Assembly (NCBI GenBank): GCA_016207515.1
Contig: JACQPN010000021.1
Span: 62,001 to 126,000 of the forward strand
Source of the DNA: Euryarchaeota archaeon
Lineage (GTDB): Archaea > Thermoplasmatota > SW-10-69-26 > JACQPN01
Reading direction: 5' to 3'
Length of the DNA stretch: 64,000 bases
The stretch's first letter is position 1, and the number at the start of each line of letters is the position of its first letter. Under the pieces are notes generated by a model, which saw only the letters and a program-made list of their open reading frames with translations, was not told the origin of the DNA and searched no databases. Made by a program: the position numbers and the translations under genes. This document shows positions 57,647 to 59,218 of this stretch, piece after piece.

Positions 57647-58571
57647 CGCCCCGGCGATCGCCCGCCCCGGCGGCGCGACGTTGGCCACGCGGCGCCCGTT
57701 GGCGATGCGCCTCATGGAATTCGTGAAGATCGAACACTCGCTCTTCGCCCTTCCCTTCGTCCTTGCCGGCCTCGTCCTCGGCTTCGAGGCGGTCGCCGTC
57801 TCGCCGTTCACCGCTCCCGGCATCCGCATCGTCGCGCTCTCACTCGTGGCCGCCGTCGCGGCGCGGACCCTCGCGATGACCTTGAACAGGCTCATTGACG
57901 TTGGGATAGACTCGCGTAACCCACGGACAGCGGAGCGCTCACTTGTGACCGGTGAGATCTCCAAGGAGACCGCCGTGGGGATAGCGATACTGAGCCTCGT
58001 GGCCCTCGTCTATGCGGCGGGGGAATTGAACCCGTTGGCCTTGCTCCTCGCGGCCCCCCTTGTCGGGCTCTTTGTGTTATACCCGTACACGAAACGCTTC
58101 ACTTGGGGGTGCCACTTCGTCCTGGGGCTGGCACTCGGATGCGCGCCCCTCGGCGGCTACATCGCGGTGACCGGTTCGACGGCCGGCATCGCACCCGTGA
58201 CGCTCCTCGGGTTCGCGGTCTACCTATGGGTAGCCGGGTTCGACATCCTGTATTCGCTGCTTGACATCGATTTTGACAGGAAGCACGGTATTGGATCGAT
58301 TGCCGGTGCTTTCGGGGCGGACACGGCCAAGTTGACCGCCCTGTCGCTTCACGCGGGGATGCTGGCGGTGTTGGCGATGTTCGCGGCCGTCAAGGACCTT
58401 GACATCGTTTTCACGGGTGCCCTGGGGATCGCGACGCTACTCTTGTTCATGGAGCATCGCCTCGTCAGGAAGGGCGATGTGGCCAGCATCAACAAGGCGT
58501 TTTTCAACGTCAACGCGATGATCGGTTGGATCCTCCTTGCCGGGATCTGGTTGGGGCTCGGGCACCAATAG
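57630..58571 (+). CDS. ubiA: UbiA-family prenyltransferase
   Basis: The 313-residue integral membrane protein has eight to nine helices and both aspartate-rich motifs: NRLIDVGIDSRNPRT in the first half and DILYSLLDIDFDRKHGIGS in the second. It attaches a polyprenyl chain to an aromatic ring (MqnP/MenA/UbiA role). The ATG at 57630 overlaps the end of ubiD by 17 bases, so the two are coupled. With ubiE, ubiD and ubiA the set covers late quinone steps. Confidence 0.93.
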   Translation: MDSALDAPAIARPGGATLATRRPLAMRLMEFVKIEHSLFALPFVLAGLVLGFEAVAVSPFTAPGIRIVALSLVAAVAARTLAMTLNRLIDVGIDSRNPRTAERSLVTGEISKETAVGIAILSLVALVYAAGELNPLALLLAAPLVGLFVLYPYTKRFTWGCHFVLGLALGCAPLGGYIAVTGSTAGIAPVTLLGFAVYLWVAGFDILYSLLDIDFDRKHGIGSIAGAFGADTAKLTALSLHAGMLAVLAMFAAVKDLDIVFTGALGIATLLLFMEHRLVRKGDVASINKAFFNVNAMIGWILLAGIWLGLGHQ

Positions 58572-58621
58572 TGGAAGACCATTCGCCGGCACAAGGTAGG
58601 TTACGCTTCGATTGAGAGCCC

Positions 58622-58880
58622 GGATTCCCGCGCCAGCCCGACCCGCTGTTGCTCGTCACCTTGCCAGCCGGTTCTAATTCCAGAACCGGCGCGCCGCGGT
58701 GACTCGCTGTTGCTCGTCACCTTGCGCGTAGATTCAGTTCCAGAATCTCCGCGCCCTCGCGGACTCGCTTCGCTCGTCCGCTTGCCCGTCGCTTCAACTC
58801 CAGAAGCGCCGGGCTTCGATGACTCCGCTTCGCGTCGTCATCTCCCGCTCCGGTCCTAATTCCAGAACCGGCGCGCCGCC
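58622..58880. repeat. tandem array of ~60-bp units, each with two hairpins whose arms co-vary
   Basis: TTCCAGAA recurs at 58678, 58738, 58798 and 58860 (spacing 60, 60, 62). Each unit has a first hairpin (CCGGTTCT/AGAACCGG; AGATTC/GAATCT; CGCTTC/GAAGCG; CCGGTCCT/AGAACCGG with one mismatch) and a second (GGTGAC/GTCACC; GCGGAC/GTCCGC; GATGAC/GTCATC). Arms differ between units, yet pairing is kept. A worn unit precedes them. The last unit enters the 3' end of the minus-strand gene at 58856. The array fills the gap after ubiA. Confidence 0.8.
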
Positions 58881-59185
58881 CGGATCTTCTCGACCTTCAC
58901 GGCGGTCGAGGCGACCTCCTTGAGGAGGTCTCCGAGCATCACATCCACGATCGCGTCTCGGAAGTCAGGCGTGATCGTGTAGAGATCGCAAAGCAATTCG
59001 CCGTTGTTCGGCACCTGATCGAGGGAGCATCGGCTCTCCACCATGTTCGAGCAGTTGCCGCACGAAGCGTAGAGCTTGCCGCCATCGGCCATTCTAGGGC
59101 CCGAGGGGGGCGGTGATTGTGGCCCCAGGGACGGTTCCTTCGGCAAGTTTTCGTCGTGTTCGCCAAGACGGTCTTCGGTGTTCAC
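58856..59185 (-). CDS. small cysteine-containing protein, unknown function
   Basis: The 109-residue protein has a low-complexity N-terminal part (proline/glycine/serine) and a conserved-looking core ASCGNCSNMVESRCSLD ... LLCDLY with four cysteines (C-x2-C, C, C), a possible zinc or Fe-S site, followed by a helix ending in RAARRFWN. The final codons lie inside the tandem hairpin array. GTG start; GGAGG four bases upstream; TATA box TTTTTATAACG at 59208-59218 on the minus strand. Confidence 0.65.
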   Translation of the reverse strand: MNTEDRLGEHDENLPKEPSLGPQSPPPSGPRMADGGKLYASCGNCSNMVESRCSLDQVPNNGELLCDLYTITPDFRDAIVDVMLGDLLKEVASTAVKVEKIRAARRFWN

Positions 59186-59207: not shown

Positions 59208-59218
59208 GTTATAAAAAC
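59208..59218 (-). promoter_or_regulatory. TATA element of the 58856-59185 gene
   Basis: The minus strand reads TTTTTATAACG, 23-33 nt before the GTG at 59185. A separate TATA-like TTCATATATCA near 59284 on the plus strand may serve the next gene. Confidence 0.5.

Follow-up and report, generated by a model that had tools for sequence, protein, structure and literature searches.

The gap between ubiA and a small minus-strand gene, in the stretch of archaeal DNA analysed here (64,000 nucleotides, hereafter the window), is occupied by an array of units that each carry a copy of the small gene's last codons and a hairpin of constant design. The same hairpin, often accompanied by copies of the neighbouring gene's end, is found at tRNA genes and at a few protein genes of this genome. 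The anatomy is firm, and from it we infer a mechanism: the chances are about even that the units are tiny non-coding DNA cassettes, stacked at the small gene's 3' end and subject to turnover. Such a pattern suggests that gene ends are being copied by a process not yet described; to our knowledge no such system is known, and none was found in listings of the open-access literature.

Structure of the array

The tandem organization proposed in the initial annotation was confirmed at 58640-58876 with a period of 60 bp. TRF places it at 58651-58879 (period 60, 3.8 copies, 71% matches), with a score of 194 that is the highest among the 30 rows obtained for the window. The array lies in the gap between ubiA (plus strand, ending at 58571; PF01040) and the small gene (minus strand), and it begins within the coding end of the latter, to which, and not to ubiA, it belongs. 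The small gene (58856-59185) has no Pfam match above the cut-off; upstream of it are TTTTTATAA at 59209-59217 and a GGAGG immediately ahead of the start. Going outward on the minus strand there are four gene ends, namely the gene's own and three copies, each enclosed in a hairpin and interspersed with tip hairpins, three of them intact and one decayed. Two hairpins per unit had been described from the beginning, and indeed a tip type and an A-type, the latter containing TTCTGGA, alternate along the array, with the stems as originally named. The features are the following:

58856-59185, minus strand: small gene, open reading frame of 109 aa starting with GTG; the array units repeat its 3' end
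58856-58876, minus strand: gene end proper, GCG CGC CGG TTC TGG AAT TAG (A-R-R-F-W-N-stop)
58850-58871, minus strand: first A-type hairpin, spanning the small gene's own end
58818-58842, minus strand: tip hairpin 1, GATGAC-GA-CGC-GAA-GCG-GA-GTCATC
58794-58814, minus strand: gene-end copy 2, GCC CGG CGC TTC TGG AGT TGA (A-R-R-F-W-S-stop)
58784-58814, minus strand: A-type hairpin spanning gene-end copy 2
58759-58781, minus strand: tip hairpin 2, GCGGAC-GA-GC-GAA-GC-GA-GTCCGC
58734-58754, minus strand: gene-end copy 3, GCG CGG AGA TTC TGG AAC TGA (A-R-R-F-W-N-stop)
58724-58754, minus strand: A-type hairpin spanning gene-end copy 3
58698-58721, minus strand: tip hairpin 3, GGTGAC-GA-GC-AACA-GC-GA-GTCACC
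58674-58694, minus strand: gene-end copy 4, an exact 21-nt repeat of the gene end
58667-58690, minus strand: A-type hairpin spanning gene-end copy 4
58640-58660, minus strand: decayed fourth tip hairpin, without the second GA and the 3' stem

All four gene ends encode A-R-R-F-W-(N/S)-stop, using synonymous codons. This copy of the gene's end in every unit was absent from the initial annotation, which had recorded a constant TTCC loop; the constancy holds, but the supposed loop lies, on the other strand, within the codons TTC TGG, and it is conserved because each unit repeats the last codons of the small gene. The idea of a 3' RNA of ubiA has to be abandoned, since the units carry the end of the small gene and not that of ubiA.

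The region 58572-58890 folds as RNA with z = -4.7 on the plus strand and -6.0 on the minus strand, with equally stable shuffles in 0/100 per strand. A scan of the window for near-repeats (20-nt, 25-200 nt apart) gave 12 pairs against 0-3 in 10 shuffles; both pairs identical at 20/20 positions are the array, while the ten others, located elsewhere, match only at 17-18/20. A chance origin of the pattern is ruled out by the shuffles (folding and near-repeats, together with the tRNA-flank copies and GA/GA hairpins presented below). At the DNA level the array matches only 2/59 relatives, over 27-33 bp. UbiA relatives from public genomes (69 loci) were not close and were left out of further comparison.

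Design of the tip hairpin

Read on its GA strand, the tip hairpin has the form stem6 - GA - 2 or 3 bp - small loop - GA - stem6, that is, a variable 6-bp stem, a tandem G.A mismatch and a loop that is often GNA or GNNA. Its 17-nt core, allowing up to 2 mismatches, has 19 sites in the genome, compared with 1 for a reversed control. Two tandem sites among the 19 being identical, 18 hairpins chosen by core sequence only were evaluated for covariation: they pair outside the core using several pair types, with 94.4% of cells paired and a covariation of 0.428 against 0.108 in shuffles (0/500), a comparison in which related rows can exceed shuffles. The compensatory change of the stems, first noticed within the array, is therefore upheld.

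The design is also evident in 30 loci of this genome chosen by tRNA score, where 21 of the hairpins carrying a two-by-two mismatch are GA/GA and a single one is of a different type (in one locus, L131, with a contig-start tRNA, the slice is off-centre on the tRNA). No GA/GA hairpins occurred in four shuffles, 5 occurred in 58 kb of the same loci away from the tRNA, and none in 30 tRNA loci of relatives, 4 of which (L260, L263, L269, L272) are off-centre with the tRNA near a contig start. Triloops (36, with GNA in 24/36) are more frequent than tetraloops (18, with GNNA in 10/18 and GNRA in 6/18), in a count where part of the regions had been selected by the hairpin itself.

GNA loops form extra-stable minihairpins in DNA (PMC6479982), and single-stranded DNA is therefore favoured as the working form of the tip. 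The d(GCGAAGC) minihairpins of that source have the tip sequence and loop type of the array tips, but they were examined as oligonucleotides and form no family of genomic elements, unlike the tip hairpins reported here (PMC6479982).

In viral contigs the core pattern was present in 64 stretches with the stem unextended (0 bp in 32, 1 bp in 15, 2 bp in 15 and 4 bp in 2), and these were considered background.

Hairpins and end copies at tRNA genes

The search for the unit in this genome and its relatives, which the initial annotation had suggested as a check, was carried out with a covariance model built from 20 hairpins and did recover further copies. In the genome of the window it gave 67 matches up to E=10 and 50 at E<=0.01, and 29 of the latter lie within 400 bp of one of the 52 tRNA genes, where 0.85 would be expected. 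Orientation is strongly biased: 17 of the 29 occupy the 3' side on the sense strand, 10 the 5' side on the antisense strand, and the other two (1 and 1) the remaining arrangements, so that the GA strand is mostly directed away from the tRNA gene at whichever end, with 27/29 pointing outward. The other 21/50 matches are not near a tRNA, and many of those have no end copy.

A copy of the last 20 nt of the tRNA (at least 15/20, within 500 nt) was found in 20/52 3' flanks (null 0.15), and a copy of its first 20 nt in 6/51 5' flanks (null 0.25). The 3' copies (n=20) are 95-97% identical across the final 15 nt, against 43% immediately past the tRNA end; for the 5' copies (n=6) the values are 97-100% across 10 nt and 37% immediately past it, the inside having been selected at 15/20 or more and the outside being unselected. 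Rows also exist (at least 14/20): C22:46683, for instance, has three copies and C18:2915 has four. The first 3' copies lie 37-279 nt from the tRNA end (20 cases), gaps too short to hold an integrase; the spacings from gene end to first copy, taken as the copy positions plus 20, are mostly 76-164 nt.

It could be hypothesized that the hairpins work in RNA, at the 3' end of transcripts or flanking tRNAs, where they would stabilise or process the molecule; the better-folding strand of the array is in fact the sense strand of the small gene, and the initial proposal of a 3' RNA of the convergent small gene was right in linking the array to that gene. As a general explanation, however, a 3' RNA does not hold, because the hairpins of tRNA genes also sit at 5' ends, pointing outward, and the 10/29 found there are on the antisense strand. 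Moreover, a structural RNA gives no reason for copied codons with a stop, triloops prevail over tetraloops and just 6/18 of the latter are GNRA, and Rfam gave 0 matches at the gathering score in the window and 0 up to E=1 in 58560-58910, so that a known structured RNA family was rejected. We regard an RNA function as very unlikely.

Some further observations concern the same flanks. A second kind of hairpin, CGCTTTTT - variable stem - AAAAAGGGT(C/G)C-like, with changing inner stems, is present in the 3' flank of the tRNA at C2:222762 (L120), upstream of tRNAs in L111 and L113, in L116, and in the 5' flank of C5:27103; in L120 two near-identical units of 75 bp have it in place of the GA tip. 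A third recurring piece, approximately TCCCCAANNGTCC, is located in loops between a gene end and its inverted copy at tRNA flanks (e.g. L171, C25:337533). Around several tRNA or tRNA-like genes of L179 (G000:C12:157000-170100) stand six or more repeated blocks, each about 400-550 bp long and 70-85% identical, two of which have the tip hairpin. L182 contains a tRNA-like copy (G000:C21:143281-143354) whose 5' end is poor and whose upstream DNA is foreign; located 1.6 kb away from the full gene at 141686, it resembles a displaced tRNA together with its first unit.

End copies at protein genes

Stop-anchored matches of the last seven residues (at least 4/7) were compared in 54 loci, and 11/466 were found within loci versus 31/27,063 between loci. 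The clear cases are the gene of the window and the genes that, from reading their translations, we take to be asnS, guaA, gdhA (in G001) and eS31 (in G004). PETASTP and SASRSAP, two of the 11 matches, seem fortuitous and do not enter the codon counts, while among six 3/7 matches only C25:159499, which weighs against, was counted and the other five were left out. The resulting set has 14 copies, five of them identical and excluded; the nine differing copies show 25 synonymous and 11 non-synonymous codon differences, where copies of one gene are not independent and the 25 include 4 stop-to-stop changes (21:11 without stops). Under the same selection the null synonymous share is 0.30, and 0/20,000 random draws reach 0.69, this null being computed for 25:11 only. 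The protein-end copies are under coding constraint, which implies that they serve or served as working ends, and hence that units are gained and lost.

Inverted arms and signs of unit turnover

In the clearest units the tip comes after a reverse-complemented copy of the gene end. Measured as the longest exact match, this inverted arm beats chance at p<=0.05 in 7/29 cases, with about 1.5 expected; in the first unit of the window it is not above chance (p=0.34), and a 20-nt test detects it in 2/52 and 0/51 tRNA flanks. As an obligatory part it is unsupported by the longest-match test, the arm being common but not required.

Inverted arms of this kind recall iterated template switching, also offered in the initial annotation, in which the fork folds back at a gene end and copies it inverted and then direct (micro tandem inversion duplication). 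Units of the form gene end - reverse complement - gene end do exist, with arms of 9-12 nt and p<=0.01 in several cases; stems would stay complementary by the copying of one arm from the other, and neither an element nor an enzyme would be required. This process is still a rival, but alone it leaves unexplained the fixed hairpin design and the coding constraint on the copies: the tip is not derived from the gene, it is fixed as GA/GA (21/22 in the tRNA loci chosen by score) and its direction is fixed at both gene ends, copying between arms would erase mismatches and yet the GA pairs persist, and no synonymous divergence is predicted. All considered, template switching seems to us an unlikely origin.

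Signs of turnover come from two comparisons. One tRNA locus is present twice, and the two versions are 94% identical along 172 bp that include one unit, but one of them has 3 units and the other 1. A protein search found guaA in 56/60 genomes, and downstream DNA was examined in 30 loci (in 2/30 there were less than 210 nt of it): end copies are present in the genome of the window (one), G001 (three) and G005 (two), all three in the class of the window, and none were found in G002 and G004 (same order) or in 25 genomes outside the class, so that guaA units occur in three genomes of the class and not in two others.

Relation to integrative elements and other known systems

Islands at tRNA genes restore the gene end and leave a displaced fragment at their outer border, 3' fragments being common and 5' ones rarer (PMC4383910). 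The units reported here share with the Islander set the restored end and the displaced outer fragment, 3' more often than 5' (PMC4383910), as the 20/52 and 6/51 tRNA flanks indicate. Islands, however, carry an integrase and measured at least 2 kb in that survey, which dropped shorter candidates (PMC4383910), whereas our units are mostly about 60-160 bp, have no room for a gene, stand in rows and possess a common tip hairpin, and no integrase gene or cargo was found between the ends in gaps of 37-279 nt. The genome of the window has 5 tyrosine integrases, 4 of them at 300 bp or less from a tRNA gene (G000:C13:3905, C5:81089, C18:3277, C25:338297), so ordinary integrative elements are present too.

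The units might then be scars of such elements, left as rows of attachment sites after islands inserted by tyrosine integrases at gene ends had been deleted. Besides the integrases next to tRNA genes, this would agree with displaced tRNA ends being a known mark of islands (PMC4383910), and restored ends would account for the synonymous copies. But random deletions would spread the spacings of the first copies more widely than is observed, and different integrases would not be expected to leave a common tip at tRNA, guaA and asnS ends; we consider this origin quite improbable.

Casposons target tRNA genes or 3'-distal regions of protein genes and produce target site duplications, in which they resemble our units, but they carry Cas1 and many genes (PMC6614799). 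Cas1 (PF01867) has 0 matches in G000, the genome of the window, which is 98% complete, and in G001, and insertion of the casposase or CRISPR type was rejected accordingly. A CRISPR array would have constant repeats and unrelated spacers, while here all parts of the unit, both hairpins included, recur with drift. We know of no gene-end copies in REPs. Like our units, the REP/RAYT sequences are small intergenic palindromes in many copies and in rows (PMC2817692), but RAYT was excluded, as no Y1 transposase (PF01797) was found in G000; this family has 0 matches also in G001-G012 and is present in some other relatives. With respect to MITEs, the outer arms of our units follow the neighbouring gene and have no common sequence, the tip alone being common to the loci. 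The E. coli tyrT repeat (rtT) likewise consists of tandem repeats that each contain a tRNA 3' end; it is known from one locus, with units near 178 bp, and is not known to have such a hairpin design or to involve protein genes. By these comparisons the array units are neither islands nor casposons nor REPs, although features known apart are joined in them.

A possible mechanism

A cassette is made of the tip hairpin followed outward by a copy of the adjoining gene's end and, often but not always, of a partial reverse complement of that end on the inner side. Cassettes are situated at tRNA genes, at the 5' as well as the 3' end, and at a few protein genes, there at the 3' end. The tip would act as single-stranded DNA, as we infer from its loops; a putative enzyme would insert the cassette, duplicating the gene end and leaving the gene intact, and units would also be lost when the gene body joins an outer copy. 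Loss of this kind would explain why codons and stop (or the last 15 nt of the tRNA) are retained in outer copies as the remainder of the unit drifts. A full enzymatic system, in which a single-stranded DNA hairpin with fixed G.A/GNA tip is inserted at tRNA and some protein gene ends, carries or templates a copy of the end and is later removed, a stored copy now and then replacing the working end, is a tentative proposal, possible but still doubtful.

Alternatively, the copies could be retained as decoys, hit by integrating elements that would so spare the gene. They are near-identical to the functional end, and tRNA ends are common integration sites (PMC4383910); yet an unsystematic look revealed no integrated element using an outer copy, and integration normally restores the gene, which makes the benefit doubtful. 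This role appears extremely improbable.

If the cassette reading is true, one group of archaea has its gene ends duplicated and replaced time and again by gene-less mini-cassettes, which fall below the 2 kb limit of a tRNA-island finder (PMC4383910), and a mobile or mutational element built on an extra-stable DNA hairpin would be added to those known. Outer copies would then record earlier codon choices of a gene end, and it would become possible to test single-stranded DNA structure in genomes. Even if template switching were the origin, the loci would form a large natural collection in which to study the emergence of inverted copies at gene ends.

Occurrence in other genomes

Among 60 genomes, including that of the window, 19 have hairpin matches at E<=0.01. 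With a stricter filter, the genome of the window, a single draft (98% complete) and the sole member of its genus and family among those searched, has 48 matches, G001 has 14 and the others have 6 or fewer. The 48 loci examined in other genomes cover 51/61 of the hairpin matches found there, and 17 of them (16 tRNA genes, in six genomes of the phylum: G001, G008, G010, G012, G015 and G021) have a tRNA within 400 bp. At these 17 loci 18/19 hairpins point outward and one inward, and an end copy is present on the hairpin's side in 10/17. When 30 tRNA loci of six relatives were instead chosen by score, 29/30 had no end copy, and the 1/30 compares with 16 of the 30 best-scoring tRNA loci in the genome of the window; the copy load is peculiar to some genomes.

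At two further loci, L205 (G033) and L206 (G025), from two genera of one family, ARAGORN called no tRNA, perhaps on account of an intron; in both, the same tip hairpin stands a few nt after an apparent tRNA 3' end.
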